17,877 nucleotides of DNA from Phycisphaerales bacterium (lineage in GTDB: Bacteria; Planctomycetota; Phycisphaerae; Tepidisphaerales; Tepidisphaeraceae), in NCBI GenBank assembly GCA_003153655.1, contig PMAK01000149.1, forward strand, positions 13,425-31,301, read 5' to 3'. Positions 1,120 to 17,826 of this stretch are shown here, piece by piece (position 1 is the first letter of the stretch; the number at the start of each line of letters is the position of its first letter). The translations under genes were made by a program, and so were the position numbers. The notes beneath the pieces were generated by a model. The model was given only the letters and a program-made list of their open reading frames with translations, was not told the DNA's origin and did no database searches.

Positions 1120-1188
1120 AGTATCGGAATGTGGCGAAGATAAATGAATCGGGTGTTGCCCGTCAAATCTCATAGGGGAATTTGCTTA
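1120..1188 (-). promoter_or_regulatory. Composite promoter E, upstream of the Tat ferredoxin gene
   Basis: Read on the minus strand: a TCAG-like TAAG at 1188-1185, 8 bases, CCTATGA at 1176-1170, 19 bases, GATT at 1150-1147, 21 bases, GATACT at 1125-1120 as the -10. It matches the other four copies in spacing exactly and is the most diverged in the CCTACGC box. The -10 ends 16 bases before the ATG at 1103. Confidence 0.75.
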
Positions 1189-1193
1189 CAAAC

Positions 1194-1240
1194 GACCCCC
1201 GAAAGCCACGTGGGACGCGCGATTCCGGGGGTCGGCTTTC
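1194..1240 (-). other. Interleaved inverted repeats (possible pseudoknot or paired hairpins)
   Basis: Two perfect 7-base complementary pairs are interleaved: GACCCCC (1194-1200) pairs with GGGGGTC (1227-1233), and GAAAGCC (1201-1207) pairs with GGCTTTC (1234-1240). The order a-b-a'-b' permits an H-type pseudoknot or two mutually exclusive hairpins. It lies after the stop of the Cys-rich gene and just upstream of promoter E, so an RNA 3' end for the GTPase operon is one possible role. There is no clear T tract. Confidence 0.45.
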
Positions 1241-1271
1241 CAGATATTTCTCAGCACAAACCGCGGCCAGT

Positions 1272-1742
1272 TCATTGGACATCACCTTGCTCCCCAACGC
1301 GATTGGGGTCTTCCACGGCGAGTTTAGAATGGTGCTCACAATCGCTCTTCGGCGTATGGACACACAGCTGTCCGAGTGCAAAAGATCGCCGAGCACAATC
1401 GTGCTCAGGGGTTGTGATTGCCGGCACATCAAGAAGCGCGACAATCCGCTCCAGAATCGCCAGTGCTTCATGGGCATAATCCAGGAAGGGGCTGGGCATT
1501 GCCGTGGGATCGCCCCTGGAAATGTCTGCCGACGATTCACAAAGCAGCTTGAGGACAAACTCCTCGTATCCAGCCGGCGGCTTGGCGCGATACCGCTCAA
1601 GAAACCGCGCCAACCGTGGCAATTGAACGAACAGCGCGCAATCGGTTTCGCACGAGTGCGGAGCGAGTAGTTGCAAGGAGTCGGCAACTGTCGGAACGGG
1701 GCAACACTGCGAGCAAATCTGCCCTCGCAATGCCATCTTCAT
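1272..1742 (-). CDS. Cys-rich small protein, CxxC-x17-CxxxC family, copy 1
   Basis: I do not recognise a named family. The 156-residue protein from the ATG at 1742 has Cys10-x2-Cys13, then 17 residues, then Cys31-x3-Cys35, followed by LFVQLPRL. The same spacing and the LFxQLPxL segment occur in the 106-residue protein at 7749-8069, and both have a similar C-terminal helix (EALAILERIVALL here, KALRVLENLF there). The C-terminus adds three more Cys. Four Cys in this order could hold a zinc ion or an Fe-S cluster. An AAGGAAG sequence lies about 13-16 bases upstream. An ATG at 1736 is an alternative start. The gene follows the second HypB-like GTPase after 55 bases, so a metal- or cluster-linked role with the GTPases is a reasonable inference. 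Confidence 0.7.
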   Translation of the reverse strand: MKMALRGQICSQCCPVPTVADSLQLLAPHSCETDCALFVQLPRLARFLERYRAKPPAGYEEFVLKLLCESSADISRGDPTAMPSPFLDYAHEALAILERIVALLDVPAITTPEHDCARRSFALGQLCVHTPKSDCEHHSKLAVEDPNRVGEQGDVQ

Positions 1743-1781
1743 CCATCCGATTGAAGTTCTTCCTTGCACTGTGATCACCCT

Positions 1782-1796
1782 GGCGCCTGAAGCGCC
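1782..1796 (-). terminator. Short GC-rich stem-loop after the second HypB-like gene
   Basis: GGCGC and GCGCC form a 5-base-pair stem with a 5-base loop directly after the stop codon at 1800-1798. There is no T tract, so it may be an RNA-stabilising or attenuating hairpin and not a true terminator. Confidence 0.35.
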
Positions 1797-1797
1797 G

Positions 1798-2541
1798 TTA
1801 TCCGAAGAATGTATTTCCCGAGGATTGTTCCGGGTCAATCGGCACATCACGCCATTTCTTGGCCGTGCGTGTTTTGTCGAGCCATTCCAACCAACAGTGC
1901 ATGCCCGACCCCGTGACTGCGGAGAGCTCGATGATCTGCGCTTCGGGGGCGATGGCTTGAGCATCGTTGCGGAAAATGTGCTCGTTGAACTTCACTAAAT
2001 GCCGAACGTCGATCTTAGTTAACAAAATGACCGAAGCGCTCTCGAGCAGCGTGTGATACTCCAATGCTTTATCGTCGCCGCCGCTTACGGCCAACACAGC
2101 CGCGGTGGCGTCCTGGCCCACATCCTTGAGGGGCGCCATACCGCCGCATCCTTCGATCAAAATGAAATCAAAGTCCTCCAGACGAAGCTGGGAAATGATC
2201 CGCCAGATCGCGGCAGGATCGGGGACAGCGGAATCGAGATGCGCAACAAATCCGCATCGGTTCTGAAGCCGTTCCGCCTCCCGGACAGACGCCGGGTCCA
2301 CCGCAATCACGGCGACTCGCCGGGGCGCGGGATATCCCTTTAAGGTTGCTTCGATCAACTCCGTTTTCCCGGATCCTGGCGGGCCAATGATTCGTAACGC
2401 CAAGACTCCGGCGCGCGCCAGTGCCGCGCGAATCAGCGCCTCCGACGGGCTCCGCCCCGTGTTCCTCTGAGCTTCGCCCAATGTTCTATGGCCGTCGCTT
2501 TCAACTGAATCGACGGAATGTCCGGACGTTTTGTTTGTCAT
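1798..2541 (-). CDS. HypB-like G3E GTPase, copy 2, metal-binding residues missing
   Basis: The 247-residue protein has a Walker A motif GPPGSGKT (residues 53-60), a DPAS segment after the second strand, LIEGCGG in the Walker B / switch region, GGDDKALEY, and TKID as the guanine-specificity motif. The GGDDK and TK-D segments and the overall order match HypB, the GTPase that delivers nickel to NiFe hydrogenase. In HypB the metal site is a Cys-His dyad plus a Cys before Pro in the GNLVCP segment. Here those places read HLDSAVPDP and MAPLKD, so no such site exists. The Met at 2541 is chosen because ATGA overlaps the stop of the upstream paralogue, a sign of translational coupling. The HypB relationship is well supported. 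Hydrogenase maturation as the actual role is doubtful. Confidence 0.82.
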   Translation of the reverse strand: MTNKTSGHSVDSVESDGHRTLGEAQRNTGRSPSEALIRAALARAGVLALRIIGPPGSGKTELIEATLKGYPAPRRVAVIAVDPASVREAERLQNRCGFVAHLDSAVPDPAAIWRIISQLRLEDFDFILIEGCGGMAPLKDVGQDATAAVLAVSGGDDKALEYHTLLESASVILLTKIDVRHLVKFNEHIFRNDAQAIAPEAQIIELSAVTGSGMHCWLEWLDKTRTAKKWRDVPIDPEQSSGNTFFG

Positions 2542-3260
2542 GGCATATCTCCCAAAGATTTTGCTCGGTCGTCCCAACTCACGAATGGAACAAACATTTC
2601 CCCATTCCCGCGCTTCTGAATTTCCCGAAACACGTGCGACTCAACCCAACTCACCCAAGCCTTGATTCCTTGATTGGATTGCGCGCATGCATCAATGATA
2701 TTCAGCCTCGGTTTCAACCGCTCAACATCTTGGCGAAAGACTTGAATATCGAAGGTGACGTAGGGAAGCAGATCGGTCTTGGTAAGAAGAACCAAGTCAG
2801 ATCCGGCGACAAGGAACGGATATTCCGTCGCTTTGTCGTCGCCTCCGGCTACGCTGAAAACGCTTACTCTCAGGTGATGCCCCAGATCGAATTCGACCGG
2901 GCTCAGTGCATTGCCATCGGCTTCTATGATCAGGAGGTCAAGATGCTGTAGGTCTAATCGGTCGAGCGACTGGCGTATATGAACGGCTGTCAGATTGTCA
3001 GTAATCAGCGGCACGGCCTGATATCCATGCCGGGTGATGCGCGAAACCTGCCGTTCAGCGGCGAGGTTTCCGACAATCACAGCGACGCGCACCTTGGGAT
3101 CGAGACGCGTAAGCAATGCCTCAATCGCCGACGTTTTCCCGGAGCCAGCCGGCCCAACCACGCTGATTACCGTCAAGCCGACCGCGTCGAAATCCTTGCG
3201 ATTGGCCTGCGCACTCTCGCTGTTCAATCTGAATCGATCTGCGAGTGATGAAGATTTCAT
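2538..3260 (-). CDS. HypB-like G3E GTPase, copy 1, metal-binding residues missing
   Basis: The 240-residue protein starts at the ATG at 3260, preceded by AGGTGG at 5-base spacing and 23 bases after the stop of the small membrane gene. In-frame starts further upstream would overlap that gene. HypB features are clear: an ANRKDF N-terminal helix, Walker A GPAGSGKT (36-43), the GNLAAERQ segment, LIIEADGNALSPVEFDLG, AGGDDKATEYP, then TKTDLLPYVTFD. Canonical HypB has a Cys-His pair in the TGxxCHL segment and a Cys in GNLVCP. Here these read TDNLTAVHI and GNALSP, so the nickel/zinc ligands are lost while the GTPase core is kept. It is a paralogue of the next gene. A heteromeric GTPase pair acting on another cofactor or target is possible, but this is inference. 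Confidence 0.85.
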   Translation of the reverse strand: MKSSSLADRFRLNSESAQANRKDFDAVGLTVISVVGPAGSGKTSAIEALLTRLDPKVRVAVIVGNLAAERQVSRITRHGYQAVPLITDNLTAVHIRQSLDRLDLQHLDLLIIEADGNALSPVEFDLGHHLRVSVFSVAGGDDKATEYPFLVAGSDLVLLTKTDLLPYVTFDIQVFRQDVERLKPRLNIIDACAQSNQGIKAWVSWVESHVFREIQKRGNGEMFVPFVSWDDRAKSLGDMP

Positions 3261-3283
3261 AATGCCACCTACACCTTCGCTGT

Positions 3284-3676
3284 TTACGTCGCCCATGGCT
3301 TGCTCGCGGACGCATTCTCTCCCAGCGACGCACGCCATGTACGCAACGACGCAAGATCGTTCCACAAAATGAGTCCGACGATCGTGAATGAGGAGAGCGA
3401 CAACAATGGCAATAAAAGTTCGGGCTTTGCCGCGACAAGCGTCAAGCCGCCCATGAGGACCGCGATTCCAATTTCTTCACGGACGAACCCGCCGAGGTGA
3501 AACTGCGGTTGTATTCTTGATTGAGTATGAACGACCATTGTCGGACGCACAATTGGCCGGCGAGTTCCGGTCCGATGAAGCCCTCGGCTTCGTGGCGGGA
3601 CCGAAACATGGTGCGCGAATCGATTGTCTCGCCGCGCAATGTTGGCCATGCTGAAGCTTTTCGTTGTCGTGCGCAT
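3284..3676 (-). CDS. Small two-helix membrane protein of unknown function
   Basis: I do not recognise this 130-residue product. The start at 3676 is set by AGGAGG at 7-base spacing, 20 bases after the PEPCK stop; an ATG 6 bases further up would be too close to the ribosome site. The N-terminal 65 residues are Arg-, Thr- and Pro-rich. The C-terminal half has two hydrophobic segments (IGIAVLMGGLTLVAA and LLLPLLSLSSFTIVGLILW). The C-terminal half is convincing. The N-terminal half has weak GC bias at third codon positions, while a neighbouring frame over about 3500-3640 has stronger bias. A frameshift pair in the gene or assembly is therefore possible. It sits between PEPCK and the HypB-like genes in the same apparent operon. 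Confidence 0.5.
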   Translation of the reverse strand: MRTTTKSFSMANIARRDNRFAHHVSVPPRSRGLHRTGTRRPIVRPTMVVHTQSRIQPQFHLGGFVREEIGIAVLMGGLTLVAAKPELLLPLLSLSSFTIVGLILWNDLASLRTWRASLGENASASKPWAT

Positions 3677-3696
3677 GTGCATGCCTCCTGACGTTC

Positions 3697-5496
3697 TCAC
3701 AGCCGACTGATGAGCAGCTCGCGCTGGAAGATCATTTCCTTTGGTAGATCGCCGGCCAACTTGAGGAATAACTCTTCTTGGCCAGCGATCTCGGCTTTGA
3801 AGGCCTCCAGATCAACTTTTTGCATTTCATCGAAGTCGGCGTCGACGATGTTCAAGCCGTTGAGATCAATGTCCTGCCTGCGCGGCATCCATCCGAGCGG
3901 AGTTTCGACTGCATAGGCACGCCCGTGACAACGATCGATGATCCACTTGATGACTCGGATGTTTTCACCGTAGCCGGGCCAGATGTATTGGCCCTTATCG
4001 TTCTTGCGGAACCAATTGACATGAAAGATGCGCGGACAATCAGACATCTTCTTGCGCATCCGAAACCAGTGAACGAGATAGTCGCGAATGTTGTAGCCAA
4101 TGAACGGAAGCATCGCCATCGGATCGCGGCGGACCACGCCGACCTGGCCGGTGGCGGCAGCTGTGGTTTCGCTGCCAACGGTCGCCCCGACGTAAACGCC
4201 ATGCATCCAGTTAAATGCCTGGAAAACGAGTGGGACAGTTTTGGCGCGGCGGCCGCCGAAGATGATCGCTGAGATTTCGACTCCATTTGGATCATCGGCC
4301 GATGCATCAAGCGCGGGGTTGTTAATCATCGGAGCCGTAAAGCGGCTGTTGGGCTGGGCGGCCTTGGTTCCGCTCTTGGGCGTCCAGGGCTTTCCGGTCC
4401 AGTCGACGCATTCAGCCGGTGGTTCAGCGGTCTTTCCTTCCCACCAGACATCCCCGTCGGGCAATAGCGCCACATTAGTGAAAATCGTATCGTGCGACAT
4501 GCACGCTATGGCGTTAGGATTGGTCTGCTCGTTCGTGCCGGGGACGACCCCGAAATAACCCGCCTCGGGATTAATGGCGCGGAGGCGCCCGGTCTTCTCG
4601 TCAACCCACATCCAGGCGATGTCATCGCCAACCGTTGTGACTTTCCAGCCGGCCTGCCGATAGATCGGGGGAGGAATCAGCATGGCGAAGTTTGTCTTGC
4701 CGCAGGCGCTGGGGAATGCAGCGGCGACATACGTCTTCTCGCCGGCGAAGCTCACGCCGCTGATCAGCATGTGCTCCGCCATCCAGCCCTGTTGTTGACC
4801 CAGGAAGCTGGCGATCCTCAGAGCCAGGCATTTCTTGCCCCATAGAGCGTTGCCGCCGTAACCACTGCCAAAGCTCCAAATCGTATTGTCCAGCGGAAAA
4901 TGGCAGATGTATCGGCGATCAGGATTGCAATCGCCGACGCTGTGGAGACAACGGGTGAATTCTTCGCTATCGCCCAACTGCTTCCAGACGATGTGCCCAA
5001 CGCGGGTCATGATTTCCATGTTGACGGCGACGTAGAGCGAATCGGTCAACTGGATGCCGACCTTGGCAAGCGGAGAACCGATCGGTCCCATCACAAATGG
5101 AATGACATACATGGTGCGGCCTTTCATGCAGCCGCGGAAAAGTGTCTTCAGCTTTGAATAAGCCGCCTTTGGCTCCATCCAGTTGTTTGTCGGTCCGGCC
5201 ATATCCTGGCTGGGTGTGCAGATGAATGTGCATTGCTCCGTACGGGCGACGTCGTTTGGGTTGCTTCGATGTAGATAACATCCGGGACGTTTTTCCTGGT
5301 TTAGCCGAATAAAGACGCCGGTGCGAACGCCTTCGTCGGTCAGTTGCTTCCGTTCTTCGGCACTGCCGGTGCAAACGTGAACTAGATTGGGTTGGCATAG
5401 CTCGATGCATTCGTTGATCCACTGTTGCACCGTTGTCGTCTCCGCTGGTTTACGAGCGTTTGTTTCTCGAATTGGGGGCTTCATAGTCGTGGTCAT
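3697..5496 (-). CDS. pckG: Phosphoenolpyruvate carboxykinase (GTP)
   Basis: This enzyme converts oxaloacetate and GTP to phosphoenolpyruvate, GDP and CO2 (reversible) in the cytosol, linking the TCA cycle to gluconeogenesis. The 599-residue length is normal for the GTP class. Signature segments are present: FPSACGKTN (261-269), which carries the active-site Cys265 and the P-loop Lys267, VGDDIAW (289-295), and [14 protein letters not shown] (308-321). The ATG at 5496 has AAGGA at 8-base spacing. It is the first gene of the minus-strand cluster running through the small membrane protein, the two HypB-like GTPases and the Cys-rich protein, with gaps of 20, 23, -4 and 55 bases. None of the five composite promoters precedes it. 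Together with the PpsR-type regulator at 6120-6995 it places PEP/pyruvate control in this locus. Confidence 0.97.
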
Positions 5497-5554
5497 GGCT
5501 TATTCCTTATGTTGTTCCAAAGCTGATAAGATGACGACCGGAAGGAGCGTGGGC

Positions 5555-6082
5555 ATGCCCCCGTCCGATTGGGCCAAAATCATCAGTGTGTCGGTCGTTC
5601 CAGTGGTCATCATTTCTGCTTGCGGGCTACTATGCCTCGCGTTTTACAATCGTTTGGCGGCGATCGTGTCTCGGCTCCGAGGTTTTCAGCGAGAGCGCCT
5701 GCATGAGCAGGAGCTCTTGCAAGGCGCCGGTCTCGATAGAGGCGAAGAACACTCGCGCCGGCGACGGCTGCTCGAACATCTGGAAATACAAAGTGCGCGG
5801 GTTGTACGACGCGCCAAACTAATTCGGCTGACTCTGTTGTTTCTGCTTCTGACAATCTCCTTAATGATCGGATGTTGCATGATGCTGGGCTTGTCGGTGC
5901 TTGCCCCGCGTGCAATATTCATCGCTGTTATGCTGCTCACCATCGGTTTGCTGAATATGCTAGCGGGCATGATTGCAGCGATGCTTGAATTAAAGGCGGC
6001 ACTCCAGCCGGCGGAGTTGGAGAGCCGCTTCGTGTCAGATATGTTGCAGCAGGAGGAGCATCGCCCGGGCGACACCACGTAA
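5555..6082 (+). CDS. DUF2721-type integral membrane protein
   Basis: The 175-residue protein starts at the ATG at 5555, with GGAAGGAG seven bases upstream; the in-frame ATG at 5531 has no such site. It has one N-terminal membrane helix (about residues 11-30), a charged, Arg- and Glu-rich middle with NRLAAIVSRLRGFQRE, a second Arg-rich stretch RVVRRAKLIR, then two further hydrophobic helices and a C-terminal ELKAALQPAELE segment. This helix / NRLxRI-x-R / RRxxL-I-R / helix pair layout matches DUF2721 (Pfam PF11026) as I remember it. No biochemical function is established for that family. It is divergent from PEPCK with 58 bases between the starts and convergent with the PpsR-type gene, so it appears to be a single-gene unit. 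Confidence 0.7.
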   Translation: MPPSDWAKIISVSVVPVVIISACGLLCLAFYNRLAAIVSRLRGFQRERLHEQELLQGAGLDRGEEHSRRRRLLEHLEIQSARVVRRAKLIRLTLLFLLLTISLMIGCCMMLGLSVLAPRAIFIAVMLLTIGLLNMLAGMIAAMLELKAALQPAELESRFVSDMLQQEEHRPGDTT

Positions 6083-6119
6083 TCCTGTCTGTCCGCCGAC
6101 ATTGTCTGACTGTTGTGTT

Positions 6120-6995
6120 TCATGACATTCGCTCCTCACGGCAGGGAGAGGGCTGGCTGAGGGCGAGCAGATCGAGAATGCGTGCGGCCGTCTCTTCGAT
6201 CGCCTGATCCGTCACTTCGAGAATGGGCATGTGCAGCCTGGCAAAGAGCCGACGGCTCCATTCCACTTCTTCCTGAACGCGGCGCGGATCGTTGTAACTC
6301 GTCTGGGTCATGTGCCATCCGGTCTGTCTGCGTGTGCGGATTTCGGCGAGTTGGCGCGGATCAATAATCAGGCCGACAGCTTTGCCGGGCGGCAGATCCA
6401 GCAGCGGGCGAGGCGGCTCGACCTGCATGGCCAGCGAGACGTTGGCGACGCGATAACCGAGCATGGCGAGATAGATGCTGGTCGGGGTCTTGCCCGTACG
6501 GGACACGCCCGCCAGAACGATGTCCGCACTGGCGAGCGTGTCCAGGCCGAGCCCGTCGTCGTGCTCAAGCGTGAAGGACATCGCGTTGATTCGGCCGCAG
6601 TAGGCATTATCGACGCGATGCAGACGACGGGGGTCGCGTAGTGGTTCGACGCGGGCGGCTTTGGCGAGGAATTCCATTGTCGAGCCGGTGAGATCGCAGC
6701 AGGCGACATCGAGACGCCGGCATCTCGCCGTGATTTCGTTCTTCAGTTCGGGAGACACAACCGCGTGCAGCACGATTCCCGGACGGGACGAAATGACGTC
6801 GAAGGCCTTTTCCAGACGCCGCAGCTCGTTGACGAACGGTTTCATCTGGGTGGCGAACGTCCCATCCGGGAATTGCGTTACGTAGGTCGCGAGCATGTGC
6901 CGGGCGAGGTTTCCGGTGGAATCGGACAGCACGTACAGGGGGATCTCTCCGGTCGCGGCAGTCTTCGGAGTTTTTTTTGCGTGCTGTGTCATCAT
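6120..6995 (-). CDS. ppsR: Pyruvate,phosphate dikinase / PEP synthase regulatory protein
   Basis: This family (PF03618) is a bifunctional ADP-dependent kinase and Pi-dependent pyrophosphorylase. It switches PEP synthase or pyruvate phosphate dikinase off and on by threonine phosphorylation. The 291-residue protein has the N-terminal YVLSDSTGNL motif (21-30), an EHDDG segment (144-148), the P-loop GVSRTGKT (163-170) and TPTSIYLA. A GTG start at 7025 is in frame, but it would fall right at the predicted transcription start of promoter A, so the ATG at 6995 is preferred; the ATG at 6992 is also possible. Its target enzyme is not in the window. The reactivation reaction releases pyrophosphate, as does pyruvate phosphate dikinase run toward pyruvate's phosphorylation partner reactions, which may relate to the co-controlled pyrophosphatase at 14949-17522. 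Confidence 0.92.
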   Translation of the reverse strand: MMTQHAKKTPKTAATGEIPLYVLSDSTGNLARHMLATYVTQFPDGTFATQMKPFVNELRRLEKAFDVISSRPGIVLHAVVSPELKNEITARCRRLDVACCDLTGSTMEFLAKAARVEPLRDPRRLHRVDNAYCGRINAMSFTLEHDDGLGLDTLASADIVLAGVSRTGKTPTSIYLAMLGYRVANVSLAMQVEPPRPLLDLPPGKAVGLIIDPRQLAEIRTRRQTGWHMTQTSYNDPRRVQEEVEWSRRLFARLHMPILEVTDQAIEETAARILDLLALSQPSPCREERMS

Positions 6996-7032
6996 AAATC
7001 TCGCTGCTTCGCCAGCAGCCTCCACTACCGAA

Positions 7033-7104
7033 ATTATCGAACCGATTGGCTCGGTTGAAAATCAGAGCTTGCCCGGCTTTAGGCGTAGGTGAATTTACCG
7101 CTGC
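7033..7104 (-). promoter_or_regulatory. Composite promoter A, upstream of ppsR
   Basis: On the minus strand: CCTACGC at 7089-7083, 19 bases, GATT at 7063-7060, 21 bases, GATAAT at 7038-7033 as the -10. The upstream CAG lies three bases further out than in the other copies. Over about 38 bases it is nearly identical to promoter B, including GGGCAAGCTC between the two boxes. Confidence 0.85.
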
Positions 7105-7108
7105 CTTA

Positions 7109-7125
7109 GGGAGCCGGACGCTCCT
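7109..7125 (-). terminator. Weak stem-loop after the 42-residue membrane peptide gene
   Basis: GGAGC and GCTCC pair across a 5-base loop (7110-7124), 16 bases after the stop of the small gene and just upstream of promoter A. No T tract follows, so termination is only a suggestion. Confidence 0.3.
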
Positions 7126-7140
7126 GTTGCCTGGCGGATA

Positions 7141-7269: not shown

Positions 7270-7292
7270 TCGGTCCCGTTACTCTGCTAGTA

Positions 7293-7361
7293 ATTATCGG
7301 ATGGTCTTCGATGGCGGAAAATCGGAGCTTGCCCGCGTTTTCGCGTAGGTGAATTCTCTGA
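7293..7361 (-). promoter_or_regulatory. Composite promoter B, upstream of the 42-residue peptide
   Basis: On the minus strand: TCAG at 7361-7358, 8 bases, CCTACGC at 7349-7343, 19 bases, GATT at 7323-7320, 21 bases, GATAAT at 7298-7293. This is the copy closest to the consensus of the five. Confidence 0.87.
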
Positions 7362-7366
7362 CGGCA

Positions 7367-7711: not shown

Positions 7712-7748
7712 TTTTGTCCTCGAGAGGCTCGGAGCAGATGCAGTCGCA

Positions 7749-8069: not shown

Positions 8070-8083
8070 CGCATTCTCGTTTC

Positions 8084-8587
8084 TCAATGGACCTGTGCTT
8101 TGGGAACCGCCTTTGGCCGGCCTGCGTGATGGCCGATCACCCTTTCCGTGGGCCAAAGCATTAAAAAGAGCATGAGCGCAAAAAAAGCCGGAACCATATT
8201 CGGCAGGAAACTGCCCGTGAAAATACAGCCGATGAGACTCAAGATTGCGGAACTCAGCAGCGCCAGCCAGATGCTGATCATGCCCGGCAGAAATTTCCCG
8301 GTACGCGCCATTGCACCCGACCGATGGCCTGAATACATGCGCTCGCGCCAGAAAAAGGCTCCCGGCGCGATCACGACGAGGTACAACATCGCAGCGATGA
8401 ACCATCGCCCTTCAGCCAATCGTGAAATCGGAACGCGATCCACGGGAATGCGCGCGCTGATCCAAAGGGCGGCTAGAAATGGCGTAAAGAGAAAGACGGA
8501 CCACAGGAGCCGCGCCAGCCGGAACGCTGTGAACGCGGACATCCGCGATCGTGATTGTTCGAGTTTTGGAAGAGTCTGGATGGTCAT
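8084..8587 (-). CDS. Four-helix integral membrane protein of unknown function
   Basis: The 167-residue protein starts at the ATG at 8587, whose ATGA overlaps the stop of the preceding gene, with CGGAGG seven bases upstream. Four hydrophobic segments lie at about 27-44, 62-80, 100-123 and 128-145. Both ends are basic. The loop after helix 2 reads WRERMYSGHRSGAMARTG. There are no obvious catalytic or heme-ligand patterns beyond two adjacent His near the C-terminus (153-154). I do not recognise the family. It is the second gene of a four-gene operon (CxxC protein, this protein, Cys-rich copy 2, Cys-motif protein) under composite promoter C, so it could anchor the small Cys-rich proteins at the membrane; this is inference from position only. 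Confidence 0.75.
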   Translation of the reverse strand: MTIQTLPKLEQSRSRMSAFTAFRLARLLWSVFLFTPFLAALWISARIPVDRVPISRLAEGRWFIAAMLYLVVIAPGAFFWRERMYSGHRSGAMARTGKFLPGMISIWLALLSSAILSLIGCIFTGSFLPNMVPAFFALMLFLMLWPTERVIGHHAGRPKAVPKAQVH

Positions 8588-8814
8588 GTTGCAGCCTCCG
8601 GGGTTAGATCGCAAAGATCAAGAGATATGGAAGATTCGGGCCGGGTTTGAACGCGGTGAGCAAAGACATTCGGCCGCCATTGGATTTTCTGGCCGAGAAC
8701 CGGGCAGAGAAAGGCGTGCGGTCGATAGGTCATGATGGTGGCGCGTTCTTCCAGGCAAAGATCGTGAGTCCCTTTGCAGGCTGGACAGCGAACATCTCTG
8801 TAGAGCACGAGCAT
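8584..8814 (-). CDS. Small CxxC protein, zinc-ribbon-like
   Basis: The 76-residue protein starts at the ATG at 8814 with a GCGGAGA ribosome site seven bases upstream. It has Cys10-Pro-Ala-Cys13, then Cys20 and Cys37-Pro, and a WRP segment after the last Cys; one more Cys lies near the C-terminus. The layout CPxC...C...CP suggests a small metal- or cluster-binding domain, but the spacing differs from the CxxC-x17-CxxxC proteins. It is the first gene of the small-gene operon, and its stop overlaps the start of the four-helix membrane gene (ATGA). The predicted transcription start of promoter C lies only about 10 bases before the ATG, which would place the ribosome site at the very 5' end of the mRNA. 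The start is therefore likely but not certain. Confidence 0.68.
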   Translation of the reverse strand: MLVLYRDVRCPACKGTHDLCLEERATIMTYRPHAFLCPVLGQKIQWRPNVFAHRVQTRPESSISLDLCDLTPEAAT

Positions 8815-8830
8815 GAAATTCTCCGCAGGT

Positions 8831-8899
8831 AATATCGATCCCGGGCTCGAATTTGAGAATCGGAGCCAAACCTGTTTTCGGCGTAGGGGATTTTGCTGA
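8831..8899 (-). promoter_or_regulatory. Composite promoter C, upstream of the small Cys-rich operon
   Basis: On the minus strand: TCAG at 8899-8896, 8 bases, CCTACGC at 8887-8881, 19 bases, GATT at 8861-8858, 21 bases, GATATT at 8836-8831. It lies between the divergent starts at 8814 and 8935. The orientation points to the minus-strand operon, but a bound regulator could also affect the acyl-CoA synthetase operon. Confidence 0.84.
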
Positions 8900-8934
8900 T
8901 GCGAATGAATACGACGGTTGCTTAAATATGTGCC

Positions 8935-11721
8935 ATGGAGCTTACATCTGATCGTGGGCCATCATTTTTTCCGGGTTCACCGTCCGCAAGATCGGCCGAG
9001 CCGAAACGTCGGCCGCTGGACGCGATTTTCGAGCCGCGCAATATCGCGGTGATTGGAGCGACCGAAGCACGCGGGAGCGTGGGGCGGACTCTGCTCTGGA
9101 ACCTGGTGAGCAGCCCTTTTGGCGGGACAGTGTTTCCGGTAAATCCCAAGCGCGCGAACGTGCTTGGAATAAAGGCATATCCGAATATCGCGGCGGTTCC
9201 GGAAAAAGTGGATTTGGCGGTTGTGGTTACACCGGCGGCCAGCGTGCCGTCGGTTATGGAGCAATGCGCAGATGCGGGCGTCAAAGGCGCGATCGTGATT
9301 TCCGCCGGGTTTCGCGAGCTGGGCACGGCTGGTCTGGAATTGGAGCAACAGGTTTTGAAACAGGCGCGGCGCGGCGGAATTCGACTCATCGGGCCGAATT
9401 GCCTCGGCGTGATGAATCCGCTGATCGGCCTGAACGCGACGTTCAGCAAAGGGATCGCGCTCCCGGGCAATGTTGCCTTCATCAGCCAAAGCGGTGCGCT
9501 GCTGACGGCGATCCTGGATTGGAGTCTTCGCGAGCGTGTGGGATTCAGTGCGTTTGTATCAACGGGGTCGATGCTGGATGTGAACTGGGGCGATTTGATT
9601 GATTATCTGGGTGATGATCCGCGCACGAAGAGCATCTTGATTTACATGGAGTCGATCGGGGATGCGCGGTCGTTTCTCTCGGCCGCGCGCGAGGTTTCGC
9701 TCAATAAGCCAATCATTGTAATCAAGGCGGGGAGAACCGACGCGGCTGCGAAGGCGGCGGCATCTCATACCGGTTCGCTGACCGGCAGCGATGAGGTGCT
9801 GGACGCGGCGTTTCGACGAACCGGCGTGCTTCGGGTGGACAGCATCGCGGATTTGTTCGCGATGGCGGATGTGCTGGCCAAACAGCCGCGACCTACGGGG
9901 CGACGCCTCGCAATCGTCACGAATGCCGGAGGACCCGGTGTTTTGGCCACCGACGCTCTCCTGGGCGGCGGCGGGGAACTGGCCGTTCTTTCGCCACAGG
10001 TTCGCCAATCCCTCGACGCGATCCTGCCTCCGCAGTGGAGCCACAACAATCCAATCGATGTGCTCGGCGACGCCGCACCCGACCGTTTCGCCAAAGCGCT
10101 GAAGTTCGTAGCCGACGATTCGGACAACGATGGCGTGCTCGTTGTCCTAACGCCGCAGGATATGACCGATCCAACTCAAACCGCCGAAGCGGTCAAATCC
10201 CTGGCCAAGCTTGATGGCAAGCCGATACTGGCGAGTTGGATGGGCGGGGCTGAGGTGACGGCGGGCCGCGCGATCCTCAACGCCGCCGGTATTCCGAACT
10301 TTGATTTCCCCGACCAGGCAGCACGTGCGTTTACGTACATGTGGCGCTACTCCTACAACCTTCGAGCACTATATGAAACCCCAGTGCTGGGCGACGGTGA
10401 CTCCACTCACGATCGGTCGGCCGCGAGCCAAATCATCAACGCCGCGAGAACCTCCGGCCGCACGCTGCTCGATGAAGTTCAATCGAAGCAGATTCTTTCT
10501 GCATACGAAATCCCGGTCGTCAAGACCCTGACCGCTGCAACATCGCAGGGCGCCATGGAAGCAGCCGACGAAATCGGATATCCCGTCGTAGTCAAGCTCT
10601 TCTCCCTCACGCTGACCCACAAGACCGATGTTGGGGGCGTGAAACTCAACCTCTCGGATCGGCAGGAAGTTGCCCAGGCTTTCGATGACATCCGCCAGAC
10701 GGTAGGTCGCACCGCAGGTGATACTCATTTCCAGGGGGTCACTATCCAACCGATGATCACCGCGCGGGATGGATATGAATTAATCATCGGTAGCAGCCCC
10801 GATTCGCAATTCGGCCCCGTTCTGCTTTTTGGCTCGGGAGGCCAGCTTGTGGAAGTGCTCAAGGATCGCGCGCTTGGACTTCCACCTCTCAACGCGACGC
10901 TGGCGCGCCGCATGATGGAACAGACAAAAATCTTCAAAGCGCTCCAGGGCGTGCGTGGACGCAAACCTGTCGATATCGAGATGCTGAGCCAAATTCTCGT
11001 TCGGTTCAGTCAGTTGATCGTCGAACAACCTTGGATTAAGGAAATTGAAATAAATCCGCTGATTGCAACGCCAAATCAGATCGTCGCCGTCGACGCCCGA
11101 ACCGTGCTCTGGAGTTCGGACAAATCAGAATCAGATTTGCCCCGAGCGGTCATTCGGCCTTATCCAACTCAATATGTCACACACTGGAAAACCCGGGATG
11201 GAATGCCGGTCACGATACGCCCAATCCGGCCCGAGGACGAGCCGTTGCTCGTCCGTTTCCATCATGAACTTTCCGATCGGAGTGTGACATTTCGCTATTT
11301 CCACTCGATCAACTTGAACCAGCGGACGGCTCATGAGCGTCTGATCCGTGTCTGCTTCAACGATTATGATCGCGAGCTAGCTTTGGTGGCCGAAGCATCG
11401 CATCCCGAAAGTCAGAAACCGATGATTCTCGGTATTAGCCGTCTGAGCAAAGTTCCGGGCGGCCGAGATGCAGAATTTGCCATTGTGATTAGCGATTCTT
11501 GGCAAAATCAGGGTCTAGGCACTCAGTTGTTACGTCTCTTGATCCAGGTTGCCCGCGACGAAAATATCCAACACCTTTTTGGCACAATCATGGCCCAAAA
11601 CCTGGAAATGCGCCGATTGGCCGAGAAACTGGGGTTCCAGTTGACCAGCGACTTGACAGATACCACGATCCAAGCCGCGTTAAATCTCCATCCGATTCCC
11701 GCCGCCGTCCACCACGATTAA
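8935..11721 (+). CDS. ADP-forming acyl/acetyl-CoA synthetase fused to a GNAT acetyltransferase domain
   Basis: The 928-residue protein has three parts. Residues about 28-480 are the CoA-binding and ligase regions of NDP-forming acetyl-CoA synthetase ([35 protein letters not shown], and [10 protein letters not shown] with His278). Residues about 505-730 are the ATP-grasp part ([22 protein letters not shown]). Residues about 757-915 are a GNAT domain with the acetyl-CoA loop NQGLGTQL near 858-865. The layout is that of Pat/PatZ protein lysine acetyltransferases. As I recall, those Pat proteins have lost the catalytic His of the synthetase part; here it is present in SHTG, so ATP-forming thiokinase activity remains possible. 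There is no Shine-Dalgarno; a TTAAAT at 8922-8927 suggests a leaderless or very short leader mRNA. The stop lies one base from the kinase start, so the two are in one operon. Confidence 0.93.
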
Positions 11722-11722
11722 G

Positions 11723-13492
11723 ATGGCGGCCATGGCGAAGAAACGCAATGAAGTGGAGCCACCCCCACCCACGGACTTTGTCTATACATTTCATCTGTCA
11801 CCCAGCGGCGAAATACGCCACGAATCAACCACCGGTGCCTTCGCGGAAATTACGGGCCACCCGCCGGATATCCTGCAAAAGCGCGGCTGGACCGGCCTGA
11901 TCTATCCGAAAGATGAGTCGCTATTGGCAACTCGCCCGACCGCATTGCTGTCAGGTCTGCCCGACGTGCGCGAATACCGCCTCATCACCGCCAACGGACA
12001 TCTCAAATGGATTCGGGATTATGCCCAGCCCATGCGCACCGAAGCTGATGGCAGCATCTTTGTCTTCGCAGCCGCTCAGGAAATCACCTCCCGCAAGAGG
12101 CTGCAGGAGGAAATGGGTCGCCTCGCCTCCATCGTTGAATCCTCCGAGGACGCGATCATGGACACGACCCTTGACGGCGTCATCGTAAGTTGGAACCGCG
12201 CGGCGGAGAAGATTTACGGCTATTCGTCCGACGAAGTTAAAGGTCGCACGGCCACACTTCTGGTGCCGACAGATCGGATCGACGAAATGGCTCGCATTTT
12301 GGCGGATGTCCGCCGGGCGGGATCAGTCTTGCGCATGGAAACGGTGCGTCTTCACAAGGACGGGCGTACCATTCCCGTGGCACTGACGGTGGCCCCCGTC
12401 CGTGATCCCGCCGGGCAACTGGCCGGAGCCTCGATCATCAGCCGCGACATCTCCCAACTCAAGCACGCCGAGTCAGCCCTTCGGGAAAACGCCACAAAGA
12501 CCACCGCTATCCTAAACACAATGGTTGATAGCGTCATCACCATCGATGAGCATGGGATCATTGATTCAGCTAACCCGGCAGCCGAACGATTGTTCGGCTA
12601 TTCTTTTTCTGAAATCGGCGGCAAAAATGTCAACCTGCTGATGCCCGAGCCATATCGCGGCGAGCATGACGAATATCTGCGCAATTATGTTCGAACGGGC
12701 AAAGCCAAGATCATCGGCATCGGGCGAGAAGTCGTCGGTCGCCGAAAGGACGGCTCCATCTTTCCCATGGATTTGGCGGTCAGCGAAATGTTTCTTGGCC
12801 AGCGGCGGCTCTTCGCGGGGATCGTACGTGACCTGACCGACCGGAAACGCATGGAGCGGCAAGTTTTGGAGATCAGCGATCGCGAACAACGCCGTATCGG
12901 CCAGGACCTTCACGACGGACTCGGCCAGCAACTGGCGGGAATCGGTTTCTTAAGCAAGTCACTGGAACAACGCCTTATCAAACAACGAGCTTCCGGAGCC
13001 GACGATGCGAAGCAGATCGCGCATCTGGTTTCGGAGGCGATTGCTCAGGCTCGCGGAATGGCGCATGGGCTCCATCCGGTCGATATGTCGGCCACGGGAT
13101 TGATGTCCGCATTGCAGGAATTAGCGCTCACGGTTCAGCACACCTTTCGAATCGAATGTTCATTCACCTGCGACCAGCCGGTGCTTGTGTCGGATGGGGC
13201 TGTTGCCACGCATCTTTATCGCATTGCTCAGGAGGCGGCGAACAATGCAATTAAGCATGGCAACGCTCAGCACGTTTCGATTGTTCTGAATCGAGACCGC
13301 GATACAATCACAGTGTCAATCAGGGATAATGGCACCGGGTTTCCCGAAGTGTTGCCGGAAAAGAAGGGCATGGGTTTGCAGACGATGCGCTATCGCGCAG
13401 GCCTGGTCGGCGCAACCTTGTCGATCATGAAGGTGCCATCCGGCGGAACGCGAGTGGATTGCTCGCTCAAAGAAGCTGATTCCTCTCCTTAA
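11723..13492 (+). CDS. Triple-PAS sensor histidine kinase with FixL-like heme PAS domain
   Basis: The 589-residue protein has no signal peptide or membrane helix, so it is cytosolic. PAS domains lie at about 18-135, 136-258 and 262-385. The third closely follows the FixL heme domain: LLMPEPYRGEHDEYL, then IIGIGREVVGRRKDGS, then FPMDLAVSEM. His315 and Arg335 sit 20 residues apart, as do the heme ligand His200 and the oxygen-sensing Arg220 of Bradyrhizobium FixL. The transmitter is not FixL's own type but HisKA_3 (HPK7): REQRRIGQDLHDGLGQQL with phosphoacceptor His397, followed by an HATPase with an N box near 507, a DNGTGF G1 box and a GMGLQTM G2 box. The start at 11723 has no ribosome site and probably uses coupling; the ATG at 11732 is an alternative. 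The response regulator follows after 11 bases. Oxygen or redox gas sensing is strongly suggested. Confidence 0.93.
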   Translation: MAAMAKKRNEVEPPPPTDFVYTFHLSPSGEIRHESTTGAFAEITGHPPDILQKRGWTGLIYPKDESLLATRPTALLSGLPDVREYRLITANGHLKWIRDYAQPMRTEADGSIFVFAAAQEITSRKRLQEEMGRLASIVESSEDAIMDTTLDGVIVSWNRAAEKIYGYSSDEVKGRTATLLVPTDRIDEMARILADVRRAGSVLRMETVRLHKDGRTIPVALTVAPVRDPAGQLAGASIISRDISQLKHAESALRENATKTTAILNTMVDSVITIDEHGIIDSANPAAERLFGYSFSEIGGKNVNLLMPEPYRGEHDEYLRNYVRTGKAKIIGIGREVVGRRKDGSIFPMDLAVSEMFLGQRRLFAGIVRDLTDRKRMERQVLEISDREQRRIGQDLHDGLGQQLAGIGFLSKSLEQRLIKQRASGADDAKQIAHLVSEAIAQARGMAHGLHPVDMSATGLMSALQELALTVQHTFRIECSFTCDQPVLVSDGAVATHLYRIAQEAANNAIKHGNAQHVSIVLNRDRDTITVSIRDNGTGFPEVLPEKKGMGLQTMRYRAGLVGATLSIMKVPSGGTRVDCSLKEADSSP

Positions 13493-13503
13493 GGACACTG
13501 AAA

Positions 13504-14184
13504 ATGTCAAAGGTACAACCGACGAAGCGCCAAAATAAACACAGGGTATTTCTCGTTGATGATCATCCGGTCCTGCGACAGGGCCTTGGCCGATTGATTG
13601 ACGATCAACCCGATCTGGCGATGTGTGGCGAGGCTGAATCGCCCGTGGAGGCGATGCGCCTGCTGCCGGCCGCTAAACCGGATGTGGTAATTGTCGATCT
13701 GACGCTAAAGGGCGGTGACGGGTTGGAATTGTGCAAGCAAATCCGCGACCGTTTCACGACGCTGCCTATCCTGGTCGTATCGATGCACGATGAATCACTC
13801 TACGCCGAGCGCGCCCTGAAGGCGGGCGCTCGCGGCTATGTCATGAAGCAAGAACCGCAGGAAACAGTGATGACCGCTCTGCGTACCGTGGCCAAGGGTG
13901 AGGTATATCTCAGCGCCAAGATGTCCGCCAAACTGCTGCGAAGTTTTTCCGGCGTCAAGTCCGACAGCGATCTGGCGCCGCTGGAACGTCTGACCGACCG
14001 TGAGTTGGAGATTTTCCGCCTAATCGGCGACGGGCAAAGCGTGCGAACGATTGCCGAGAAATTGTTTCTGAGCACCAAAACGGTTGAAGCGCACAAGGAA
14101 CACATCAAGCAGAAACTGAATCTGAAAAGCAGCAACGAGTTGCTTCAATACGCCATCGAAGCGAGGGTCACCGATAGACAATAA
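13504..14184 (+). CDS. NarL/FixJ-type response regulator
   Basis: The 226-residue protein has an N-terminal receiver domain (acidic pair Asp19-Asp20, phosphoacceptor Asp65 in VVIVDLTLKGGDG, Lys in YVMKQE) and a C-terminal LuxR-type helix-turn-helix (LTDRELEIFRLIGDGQSVRTIAEKLFLS). AAGGA lies eight bases before the ATG. It is 11 bases downstream of the HPK7 kinase, the standard cognate pairing, so phosphorylation by that kinase is expected. FixJ, DevR/DosR and NarL share this fold and control respiration and hypoxia genes. I infer that it binds the five composite promoters, but the window shows no direct proof. Its gene is convergent with pdxH, with only 12 bases between the stops. Confidence 0.95.
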   Translation: MSKVQPTKRQNKHRVFLVDDHPVLRQGLGRLIDDQPDLAMCGEAESPVEAMRLLPAAKPDVVIVDLTLKGGDGLELCKQIRDRFTTLPILVVSMHDESLYAERALKAGARGYVMKQEPQETVMTALRTVAKGEVYLSAKMSAKLLRSFSGVKSDSDLAPLERLTDRELEIFRLIGDGQSVRTIAEKLFLSTKTVEAHKEHIKQKLNLKSSNELLQYAIEARVTDRQ

Positions 14185-14196
14185 GTCGCGCGTCGC

Positions 14197-14901: not shown

Positions 14902-14948
14902 GGATTGCCAACTCCGTTGCCCATGACGCTGCAAGGGCGCGAATTATG

Positions 14949-17522
14949 TTAGCGCGCCGCGACGGCCAAGTCTTCTCGAACAGGGGCGGCCATTGCATCG
15001 CGTTCGCCACGACCGCTGCGAATTCTCATCCCATAGAACGACCGATAGACGAAGCCCAGCGCGATGATGAAGAACCCAAGCGCGAGCCAGGCCGTCAGGT
15101 GGGCCGGCACGTTGGGATTCTTCCTTAGGCTCTGGGCCAATTCGACGGCCAGCAGGCCGAATAGCGTCGTGAATTTGATGATCGGGTTCATCGCCACGGA
15201 CGAGGTATCCTTGAACGGATCGCCAACGGTATCGCCGACGACCGTGGCGGCGTGCAATTCGGTTCCCTTTTCCCGCAAGACAACCTCAACGATTTTCTTA
15301 GCGTTGTCCCACGCCCCACCGGCGTTGGCCATGAAGATCGCCTGAAACAGGCCGAAAATCGCCATGGAAATCAGAAATCCGATGAAGAAGAATGGGTCGA
15401 TACAGGCGTAAGCCAAGGTACTGAAAAAGACCACGAAAAAAATGTTGACCATTCCCGCCTGCGCATAACGCGTGCAGATTGCGACGACCTTCTTGCTGTC
15501 CGCGATCGAAGCTTTTTCCGCGCCATCAAGGTGCATATTTCGGCGGATGAATTCGACCGCGCGGAATGCGCCCGTGACCACGGCTTGCATGCTGGCGCCA
15601 GTGAACCAGTAAATCTCCGCACCGCCCGCGATCAGGCCCAGGAGAAACGGCGCATACAACACGGAAAGATGCGCTATTCCCACGGGATCGGTCAGCTTGT
15701 TCGTCAGCATCATGATGATCGAGAAAATCAGCGTGGTTGCGCCGACGACCGCTGTGCCGATGAGGACCGGCTTGGCGGTGGCCTTGAATGTGTTGCCGGC
15801 CCCGTCGTTCTGCTCCAGCAGCAGCTTGGAGTGCTCGAAATCGACATTGATGCCGTGATCGCGTTTGAGCTGCTCGCGGACGCCGGGAATCGTTTCGATC
15901 AGGCTCAGCTCGTAGACGCTCTGGGCGTTGTCGGTGACGGGCCCGTAGCTGTCCACGGCGATCGTGACCGGTCCCATGCCCAGGAATCCAAAGGCGACCA
16001 GGCCAAAGGCGAACACCGCGACAGCCGCGCTAGCGCCAGGATTGAGCAGCGACTCGACGCCGCCAACTCCGCTCCATGTCGCAACGCCGTAAGCGAGCGC
16101 CATTAGACCGGCGATGACCACGCCACCCATCCAGAACGCCGAGAAATTGCCGGCAGTGAGACCGCTGAGGATGTTCAGCGATGCCCCGCCCTCGCGGCTG
16201 GCATCGACGATTTCGCGCACGTGGCGGCTATGGACGCTGGTGAAAACTTTGGTGAATTCAGGTATCAGCGCCCCGGCCAGCGTGCCGCAGGTGATGATCG
16301 TGGACAATTGCCACCACAGCCCGCCGCCGAGGTTATGAATCAACGCGAACGACCCTAAGTAGGTTGTCGCGATTGAGACGAAGCTGGTGATATAAACCAG
16401 GCTAGTGAGCGGCTTTTCAAAATCCATTTCAGTCGCATGCTGGTAACGTATGCGAGCCAGCGACTCGTTGATCCAATACGAGACGCCGCTGGTAATGACC
16501 ATGACGAGACGCATGGCAAAAATCCAGACCAGGAGTTGAACCTGCAATTCGGGTCGAACCGCCAAAAGGATAAAGGTAATCAACGCCACGCCGGTGACGC
16601 CGTAGGTTTCGAAACCATCGGCGGTGGGCCCGACGCTGTCGCCAGCGTTGTCACCGGTACAATCGGCGATCACGCCCGGATTTCGGGCGTCGTCCTCCTC
16701 GACTTTGAAGACGATCTTCATCAAGTCCGCGCCGATGTCCGCGATCTTCGTAAAGATTCCCCCCGCGACGCGCAGTGCGGCCGCGCCCAGCGATTCCCCC
16801 ACCGCAAATCCGATGAAGCAAGGTCCGGCATAATTCCTAGGTATGAAAAGGAGAATGGCCAGCATGATCATCAGTTCGAGGCTGATGAGAACCATGCCCA
16901 CGCTGATGCCGGCTTGTAGCGGGATCGAATAGAGCGGATACGGCTTGCCCATCAGGGAAGCTTGGGCAGTTCGGCTGTTGGCGAAGGTGTTAATCCGCAT
17001 CCCGAACCACGCGACCGACACGCTGCCGGCGATGCCAATCAGGCTGAACCCAAGGATCGTCGCCACTTGCGCGACGGTCATGTGGCGCCCCACCTCATCC
17101 GTGGTGAGAAAGCCGAAATACACCACCAGGATCGCTCCGATGAAAAATTCCAAAAATAGGATGAAGAGCAACTGTGTCTTCAGATAAGTCTTGCACGTGG
17201 CGTAAATGGTCTCCGAAACCGCGCTCATCGCCGGATGCACGGGCAATGCCTTCAGGCGGCGCTGAATGATCAAACCGAACGCGAGCCCCGCGAAACAGAT
17301 GGCCAAGCCAAAGACGAGCAGCGTCCAGCCGTCGATGAAGCCGAAGTATCGCACGGAATGTAAGTCAGGAATTCGAAGGCTCGCCTCACTTGCGACGGAC
17401 AAAGCTGGAAACGCCAATACGAAAAATGCAAAGGCGGCTCCGAGCAGAGCCGGACCCGGTTTCGCGAGCCAACGGCGTGTCATTCTCCGCAACGTTTCAC
17501 ATTTTGGGAACTTGCCGATCAC
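14949..17522 (-). CDS. hppA: Membrane-bound ion-translocating pyrophosphatase
   Basis: The enzyme splits pyrophosphate and pumps H+ (or Na+) across the membrane. Signature segments are present: DIGADL (262-267), EDDARNP (276-282), GDNAGD (290-295), DSYGPVTDNAQ (524-534), and near the C-terminus VVGDTVGDPFKDTSSVAMNP. The GNTFK segment carries Lys580 at the place where K+-dependent forms have Ala, so a K+-independent type is likely. At 857 residues it is longer than the usual bacterial length of about 670-800, with a cleavable-looking N-terminal signal (hydrophobic to ALSVAS) and about 20 extra residues before GNTFK. The start is the GTG at 17522: AAGGAGG lies five bases upstream, stronger than any site at the in-frame ATG at 17483. 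Composite promoter D precedes it, with a leader of about 54 bases. It fits energy saving when ATP is scarce. Confidence 0.96.
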   Translation of the reverse strand: MIGKFPKCETLRRMTRRWLAKPGPALLGAAFAFFVLAFPALSVASEASLRIPDLHSVRYFGFIDGWTLLVFGLAICFAGLAFGLIIQRRLKALPVHPAMSAVSETIYATCKTYLKTQLLFILFLEFFIGAILVVYFGFLTTDEVGRHMTVAQVATILGFSLIGIAGSVSVAWFGMRINTFANSRTAQASLMGKPYPLYSIPLQAGISVGMVLISLELMIMLAILLFIPRNYAGPCFIGFAVGESLGAAALRVAGGIFTKIADIGADLMKIVFKVEEDDARNPGVIADCTGDNAGDSVGPTADGFETYGVTGVALITFILLAVRPELQVQLLVWIFAMRLVMVITSGVSYWINESLARIRYQHATEMDFEKPLTSLVYITSFVSIATTYLGSFALIHNLGGGLWWQLSTIITCGTLAGALIPEFTKVFTSVHSRHVREIVDASREGGASLNILSGLTAGNFSAFWMGGVVIAGLMALAYGVATWSGVGGVESLLNPGASAAVAVFAFGLVAFGFLGMGPVTIAVDSYGPVTDNAQSVYELSLIETIPGVREQLKRDHGINVDFEHSKLLLEQNDGAGNTFKATAKPVLIGTAVVGATTLIFSIIMMLTNKLTDPVGIAHLSVLYAPFLLGLIAGGAEIYWFTGASMQAVVTGAFRAVEFIRRNMHLDGAEKASIADSKKVVAICTRYAQAGMVNIFFVVFFSTLAYACIDPFFFIGFLISMAIFGLFQAIFMANAGGAWDNAKKIVEVVLREKGTELHAATVVGDTVGDPFKDTSSVAMNPIIKFTTLFGLLAVELAQSLRKNPNVPAHLTAWLALGFFIIALGFVYRSFYGMRIRSGRGERDAMAAPVREDLAVAAR

Positions 17523-17582
17523 AAAAGCCTCCTTATGGCTTTGCCATGTTCGACGCGTAGCGCGGCGAACTCAATGTCGGGC

Positions 17583-17651
17583 ACTATGAAGCGTCAGGTT
17601 CGATTCAGAAATCAGCACTCTTCCTGTAATCTGCGTAGGGGAATTCGCTGA
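17583..17651 (-). promoter_or_regulatory. Composite promoter D, upstream of hppA
   Basis: On the minus strand: TCAG at 17651-17648, 8 bases, CCTACGC at 17639-17633, 19 bases, GATT at 17613-17610, 21 bases, CATAGT at 17588-17583 as a weak -10. The upstream half is consensus-like, while the stretch between the boxes differs from copies A and B. The rest of the hppA spacer (17652-17826) shows no feature I can support. Confidence 0.82.
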
Positions 17652-17826
17652 TATGAATGGAGTCACGAATCAGCTCAGGGGCCGGCGCGCCCGCTCAAAG
17701 CTTCTCGACAGCCGCGGTCTAGGCAGATTTACCGATCTTCAAAAGAGTAACTTGACCAATAGTGGTTTTTCCGCGTTCGCTTCAAACTTGCGTGCAGTAT
17801 GCGTATTCGCAACAGCGGAGGTCACT

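Follow-up and report, generated by a model that had tools for sequence, protein, structure and literature searches.

The heme sensor DevS/DosT is of the GAF type; the FixL kinase is of another type than HisKA_3. Response regulators (RRs) of the GacA type belong to the NarL/FixJ family and are associated with an upstream palindrome before small-RNA genes. DevR promoters carry close-packed sites that are bound cooperatively, and the proximal site lies over the -35 position (PMC3029386). OsdR of Streptomyces has a 16-nt palindrome, AGGGCCGATCGGCCCT, with 4-8-4 geometry, and its targets include universal stress proteins and pyruvate phosphate dikinase (PPDK) (PMC5069765). The FixJ site of S. meliloti is TAAGTAATTTCCCTTA, and FixJ protects -69/-44 and -57/-31 at fixK (PMC4999443). 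Here, a 17,877-nucleotide stretch of a Phycisphaerales bacterium (the whole of which is called the window) is compared with these systems. It carries five composite sites, s1 to s5. The best explanation, to which a probability of about 0.7 is given, is that these are tandem operators of a NarL/DevR-family RR, read by the neighbouring FixL-like/DevR-like pair in a low-oxygen-type regulon that is predicted from sequence.

Structure of the composite sites

The source genome (G000) is a 4.65 Mb draft with a completeness of 88%. An earlier note on the window described five intergenic minus-strand sites, each made up of CCTACGC, a 19-base gap, GATT, a 21-base gap and a GATAAT-like -10 box. All five are present on the minus strand with both gaps and with the -10-like boxes as described (Table 1). 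All five lie entirely outside called genes; non-coding DNA makes up 10.2% of the window. CCTACGC is exact in four of the five, while s1 (1188-1120) reads CCTATGA. The TAAG or TCAG reported eight bases upstream in four sites is found in s1, s3, s4 and s5; s2 has GCGG at that place. Candidate starts follow the -10 box by 16 bases in s1, 37 or 40 in s2 (with a GTG at 7), 23 in s3, 16 in s4 and 60 in s5. A relaxed site pattern, composed with the sites already known, has five matches in the window and none in 300 second-order Markov windows. The pattern CCTACGC-N19-GATT-N21-NATANT matches four times in the genome, every time within the window, and its reversed control does not match. The five composite sites are real and beyond chance.

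The structure of the sites was examined in a set of 11, comprising s1 to s5, three sites from other contigs of the same genome (C34a, C34b and C75), two from the relative G013 (Phycisphaerales bacterium UBA1161) and one from bin49. In the alignment, numbered relative to CCTA, the G of position -9 and the A of position -5 are invariant, and conservation extends to a GG pair (+15/+16), C (+24), G (+26) and T (+28). The GG stands nine bases ahead of GATT. In nine of the 11 sites the distal box is an imperfect palindrome, TNRG-N8-CCTA; its left half differs in s2 (GCGG) and in bin49 (ATAG). In a 16-site profile, the correlation between distal and proximal boxes is best at offset 24 (0.44); between 19 and 27, none of the eight remaining offsets exceeds 0.13. 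The composite resembles a single imperfect palindrome present twice in tandem, in a 24-bp register (TNRG-N8-CCTACG and NGG-N7-CYGATT), and the proximal box seems to be a degraded second copy of the distal one. The sequence downstream of the RR gene in a further locus (L024) can be read as three tandem 24-base units.

Since the proximal box resembles the distal box at the 24-bp offset, GATT is read as part of the operator and not as a -35 box. The note had placed it as a -35 box; it is better seen as the right half of the second tandem operator copy, which overlaps the -35 position. The wider proposal, a composite promoter in which an activator site adjoins a degenerate -35, is supported, the activator site lying at about -67. 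If the GATAAT-like box is the -10, the distal box is centred near -67 and the proximal box near -43. GATT and the -10 box are 21 bases apart in s1 to s5 and in C34a, 20 in C34b and 22 in the two G013 sites; the C75 and bin49 sites are without a clear -10. The gap of exactly 21 bases holds for the five window sites and is local. The distance from box to box is constant among the aligned sites while the -10 spacing varies from 20 to 22. As a spacing control, a whole-genome pattern with the inter-box gap off by one base gave three matches at two mismatches, none at one or zero, and no known site.

Occurrence of the sites in this genome, in relatives and beside related regulators

Two sequence models were used: R1 was built from the five window sites and R2 from the 11-site set. 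R1 recovers the five window sites at E<1e-13, by construction. Its other matches in the genome at E<=10 are C34:6497 (0.005), C75:10033 (0.02), C34:8865 (0.09) and, weakly, C26 (6.0). R2 has eight strong matches, and the three outside the window (C34 twice, C75) are its own training sites. Additional R2 matches between listed open reading frames (ORFs) are C15:4090 (E 0.003) and C301:5787 (E 0.04), and weaker ones on C248, C135 and C163 (E 0.3-0.9) sit inside long ORFs. The note had held the regulon to be locus-wide, but it is not confined to one locus: there are sites on contigs C34 and C75 too, and weak ones on C15 and C301.

C34:6497 lies upstream of paralogs of the Cys protein at 8584-8814 and its membrane protein. 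It is preceded by NiFe-hydrogenase (large subunit), HypB-like and HupE genes, so that contig C34 carries these genes together with composite sites. C34:8865 is upstream of genes for a cytidylate kinase-like protein and a universal stress protein, and C75:10033 is upstream of an ORF whose start is signal-like. C301:5787 is flanked by hypF and an ORF matching the first third of pyruvate:ferredoxin oxidoreductase (PFOR). A weaker minus-strand site on C34, at 8679 (position weight matrix (PWM) score 17.6), is upstream of a YbaK-like gene, an assignment below the curated cut-off. The Cys-motif protein and the membrane protein form a paralogous module with two genome copies (window 8084-8814 and L103:6597-7362), each behind a composite site. 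The Cys-motif protein of the window has no Pfam or NCBIfam match, and the same holds for the window copies of the module where tested.

Over 60 relatives, R1 finds full composite sites at low E only in G013 (3.8e-8 and 0.003); weak matches with E 0.01-0.03 occur in G029 (two) and G056 (one). The G013 sites lie upstream of the orthologous H+-pyrophosphatase (L096) and ferredoxin (L099) genes, and the pyrophosphatase site is divergent from an acyl-CoA synthetase ortholog. A third, weak site in G013 (E 0.24), with a 21-base spacer and GATAAT, is in the gap between the gene for phosphoenolpyruvate (PEP) carboxykinase (PEPCK) and the histidine kinase (HK)-RR pair; another (E 0.16) is upstream of a lipoprotein-like gene. 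In the search of the 60 relatives, the closest ortholog of the window RR (68%) is that of G013, and the HK adjoining it has the heme signature.

The two-box pattern TNRG-N8-CCTACG-N9-GG-N7-CYGATT was derived from sites already known. With at most one mismatch it has seven matches in G000, two in G013 and two in the other 59 genomes together; with at most two mismatches there are 11 vs 3 control matches in G000 and 4 vs 1 in G013. At E<=0.05, R2 matches nowhere in the 26-genome family except in G000 and G013. The matrix scan of the genome and its relatives that the note had proposed has yielded further sites before genes here and in G013, with near-chance numbers across the phylum. G018 has a weak match (E 0.12) 87 bases past one of its RR-clade genes. 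In the distant planctomycete G405 there are two intergenic, mutually similar sites (L196, L203) that read TGTAGGG...CTACA, then AAATCAGGGAA, a C run and a -10-like box; these possibly belong to the same operator class.

The palindrome ATAGGGGATTCCCCNAT has 22 matches in 17 of 392 genomes across the phylum, vs eight control matches in six genomes. It was followed up in 21 loci (about 1.5 kb on each side of the match); HK or RR relatives are absent from all of these, and a DsrO-like ferredoxin is present in one (L214). Since its loci are without HK or RR relatives, the palindrome alone is not diagnostic.

Relatives of the window RR were collected in 80 named loci and 30 loci from relatives and the own genome. 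By record title, this RR clade is found in Planctomycetota, Verrucomicrobia, Deltaproteobacteria and others. Removal of the own locus, G013 and duplicates left 103 segments downstream of RR genes. A profile trained on window-type sites finds composite sites just downstream of the RR gene in several distant loci. Among 12 refined motifs from a de novo search of the 103 segments, aGGGGATTCCCCGATgca ranks first by information (15.2 bits) and fourth by likelihood. The motif second by likelihood contains GGGGATTCC; the first probably lies in the coding end of the RR gene. AGGGGATTCCCCGAT occurs with at most three mismatches in 16 of the 103 segments vs 0.58% of 1388 random segments, and with at most four in 25 of the 103 vs 5.3%, a comparison that is strong and not blind, being post hoc, with the consensus taken from the same segments and the random ones not confined to intergenic DNA. 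The palindrome is associated with the RR clade.

Box spacing in the distant loci was assessed with a split-box test on the 103 segments, with bin49 out of the training set. At a score of at least 8, the native gap gave 13, a gap one shorter 10 and a gap three shorter 7; at a score of at least 14 the figures were 4, 1 and 1. Controls at score 8 gave 4 for reverse complements and 1.4 on average for random segments.

AGGGGATTCCCCGAT-like palindromes, some of them tandem, are found about 40-390 bases downstream of the RR gene in distant phyla. Read by eye, the ORFs downstream of palindromes include some that are csrA-like, glutamate dehydrogenase-like, HypB-like with a stress protein, and acyl-CoA synthetase-like; the csrA-like ORFs lie downstream of sites in L025 and L134 and were assigned from translations only. 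Small RNAs from promoters downstream of RR genes were considered and set aside: Rfam gave only three tRNAs in seven loci and nothing in the window. By a regular expression in the longest open frame upstream, the HK has the FixL heme signature in 18 of the 110 loci, a count that includes the own locus and, twice, G013. It seems that the operator goes with the RR clade while the sensor head varies.

Candidate regulator, rival explanations and predicted target genes

The note recognised a regulon, which stands, without connecting the motif with the FixL-like/DevR-like pair (11723-14184). In the kinase, residues 258-383 match the heme-PAS domain of FixL (1dp6, E 1e-32), and the best PDB match is FixL 8js5, over residues 154-384 (E 1e-38). 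His315 and Arg335 align with FixL His200 and Arg220, which have the roles of proximal His and distal Arg (PMC10765370). The best PDB match of the RR is DevR (3c3w, E 3e-33), followed by NarL and VraR; FixJ is far lower (E 7e-13).

According to the preferred explanation, the five composite sites would be sigma-70-type promoters without a proper -35, each with two tandem palindrome copies 24 bp apart. The distal copy (idealised TAGG-N8-CCTA) would be the strong site, and the proximal copy (NGG-N7-CYGATT) would be degenerate and weak. The kinase would phosphorylate the adjoining RR, which would bind the boxes. The FixL-type heme-PAS domain most likely senses oxygen; because of this domain, activation at low oxygen is suggested, and the kinase would be active at low O2 by analogy with FixL. 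The phosphorylated RR would bind both copies cooperatively and recruit sigma-70 RNA polymerase. The identity of the binder, its activating role and oxygen as the signal are inferred.

The predicted targets are energy-conservation and stress genes: the membrane pyrophosphatase, the PPDK regulator, ferredoxin/NrfD electron transfer, the Cys protein/membrane protein modules, the cytidylate kinase-like gene with the universal stress protein and perhaps the PFOR-like and HypF genes. This set fits an anoxic energy-saving programme. A broader proposal is tentative and on balance doubtful: a cross-phylum RR clade would keep one tandem 24-bp operator and swap sensor heads, the head in Phycisphaerae being a FixL-type oxygen sensor, with an energy-economy regulon on pyrophosphate/PEP metabolism (membrane pyrophosphatase, PPDK regulator, PEPCK, PFOR). 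If the explanation is true, the window would supply, for an uncultured lineage, predictions of the sensor, the regulator, the operator and the set of targets. A heme sensor would also be connected with energy saving based on pyrophosphate and PEP, and the motif could be used to seek such regulons elsewhere.

A number of results weigh against the assignment of the operator to this pair and to oxygen. Asn321 of the kinase replaces the FixL switch residue Arg206. In the window, no site with a PWM score of at least 8 immediately precedes the RR, HK or PEPCK genes. In the relatives G002 and G012, of the same family, a FixL-type HK adjoins a related RR (59% and 56%), yet no site is found in the 8-kb and 13-kb stretches around these genes, and R2 has no match below E 1 in the genome scan. 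The helix-turn-helix (HTH) domain of the G013 RR is 77% identical to that of the window RR; the same value is found for G002. At two mismatches the two-box pattern gives 81 vs 68 control matches in the other 59 genomes, which is near chance, and so is R2 across the phylum outside its own genome, with seven of 391 genomes at E<=0.01 vs about four expected. In the distant loci the native box spacing is favoured and not strict; it is looser than in the window. The FixL heme signature is absent from the HK in all 16 loci whose downstream palindrome is strong, as judged by a regular expression in the longest open frame upstream only; for this reason oxygen sensing is not taken as general in the RR clade.

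Another NarL-family RR of G000 could be the real binder of the same tandem operator, while the FixL-like pair controls something else. The genome has two RR-clade paralogs at E<1e-60 (C259 and C107), with HTH domains 56% and 61% identical to that of the window RR, and the absence of detected sites in G002 despite an equally close HTH points the same way. However, no site with a PWM score of at least 12 is found in the 7-kb stretches around the two paralogs (L174, L175), and G013 has the sites together with a single clade RR at E<=1e-60, the ortholog of the window RR. A different binder is considered unlikely. An alternative sigma factor that reads GATT as -35 and GATAAT as -10, with the upstream conserved boxes as the site of a second factor, would account for the 21-base gap constant in the five window sites and C34a. 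It is a good deal less probable still, because other sites have a gap of 20 or 22 with an unchanged box-to-box distance among those aligned, so that fixed -35/-10 spacing is not the conserved core; the likeness of the boxes at the 24-bp offset and the three tandem units in L024 also speak against it.

Least probable is that the five sites are copies from recent duplication and alike from common descent only. Site s4 and the C34 site do precede paralogous gene pairs (Cys protein 49%, membrane protein 40%), and descent explains this pair of sites, against the note's view that it is insufficient. The note is borne out elsewhere: the genes that follow the other window sites are unrelated, the boxes persist in G013 at the promoters of orthologous genes, and there is little information between the proximal box and the -10 across the 11 sites.

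Genes of the window are listed with the sites in Table 1. The sites lie upstream of genes that are mostly unrelated, in support of the note's shared regulon of composite promoters. The acyl-CoA synthetase-like gene is possibly co-regulated, since it is divergent from s4 here and from the pyrophosphatase site in G013. On the 3' side of the ferredoxin gene, beyond the window on the same contig, there are genes for NrfD, cytochrome c and further minus-strand genes. A membrane-protein-like ORF, 5387-6082 (+), lies between the PEPCK and PPDK regulator genes; because it intervenes, these two are probably not one operon. Two adjoining HypB-like GTPase genes occupy 1798-3365, one above and one below the curated cut-off; there is no hydrogenase gene in the window. 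A weak plus-strand match at 17720-17764 (PWM 9.4) faces away from the pyrophosphatase gene toward the next plus-strand ORF.

Table 1. Composite sites, candidate regulators, neighbouring genes and related palindromes; positions are those of the window unless a locus is named
Feature	Position	Strand	Description
s1	1120..1188	-	distal box 1188-1171 TAAG-N8-CCTATG; proximal 1163-1147 ACGG-N7-CCGATT; GATACT 1125-1120
s2	7033..7104	-	distal box 7101-7084 GCGG-N8-CCTACG; proximal 7076-7060; GATAAT 7038-7033
s3	7293..7361	-	distal box 7361-7344; proximal 7336-7320; GATAAT 7298-7293
s4	8831..8899	-	distal box 8899-8882; proximal 8874-8858; GATATT 8836-8831
s5	17583..17651	-	distal box 17651-17634; proximal 17626-17610; CATAGT 17588-17583
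Histidine kinase	11723..13492	+	PAS domains, FixL-type heme-PAS (residues 258-383), HisKA_3 (likely phospho-His397), HATPase
Response regulator	13504..14184	+	receiver (likely phospho-Asp65) and LuxR/GerE HTH; closest solved relative DevR
Tat-signal 4Fe-4S ferredoxin, DsrO-like (below curated cut-off)	216..1103	-	predicted target of s1
Kinase/pyrophosphorylase, PPDK/PEP synthase regulator	6120..6995	-	predicted target of s2
42-codon ORF	7269-7141	-	downstream of s3
76-aa protein with CPAC motif	8584..8814	-	predicted target of s4; then membrane protein 8084-8578
Ion-translocating membrane pyrophosphatase	14949..17522	-	predicted target of s5
Acyl-CoA synthetase (ADP-forming type) + GNAT	8935..11721	+	divergent from s4
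AGGGGATTCCCCGAT-like palindromes	L024:10787-10855; L040:10964-11008; L055:10810-10854; L025:10799-10843; others		

Comparison with described systems

No description of an oxygen-type two-component regulon in Planctomycetota came up in a literature search, whose coverage mostly excluded subscription papers. The sensor-regulator combination and the target set of the window were likewise not found in the literature searched.

The window shares with GacA-type systems a palindromic upstream site and an RR of the NarL/FixJ family, and csrA-like ORFs occur at L025 and L134. In contrast to GacA-type systems, the predicted targets in the window are protein genes, and Rfam has no match there.

FixL-FixJ resembles the window in its sensor, a heme-PAS domain with proximal His and distal Arg; in the window kinase these residues are assigned by alignment and heme binding is predicted. 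The window box is like TAAGTAATTTCCCTTA and has the same 4-8-4 geometry (TAAG-N8-CTTA). The window promoters also have the same layout as the fixK promoter with its two FixJ-protected regions. Unlike in FixL-FixJ, the RR is closer to DevR than to FixJ (3e-33 vs 7e-13) and so does not fall in the FixJ subfamily, the kinase is of the HisKA_3 type and there is an Asn at the position of Arg206.

With DevRS/DosRST of Mycobacterium and OsdKR of Streptomyces, the window has in common an RR of the NarL subfamily, closest to DevR. The palindrome has the 4-8-4 geometry, and universal stress proteins are among the targets, those of the window being predicted. If the GATAAT-like box is the -10, the window promoters also have at least two close-packed boxes with the proximal one over -35; cooperativity would be expected here by analogy. 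The sensor differs: Pfam reports PAS domains and no GAF domain in the window kinase, which is of the FixL heme-PAS type and not of the DevS/DosT type. The window box is near TAGG-N8-CCTA, in which it also departs from the DevR/DosR system, and the predicted targets are mostly genes of energy conservation and electron transfer.

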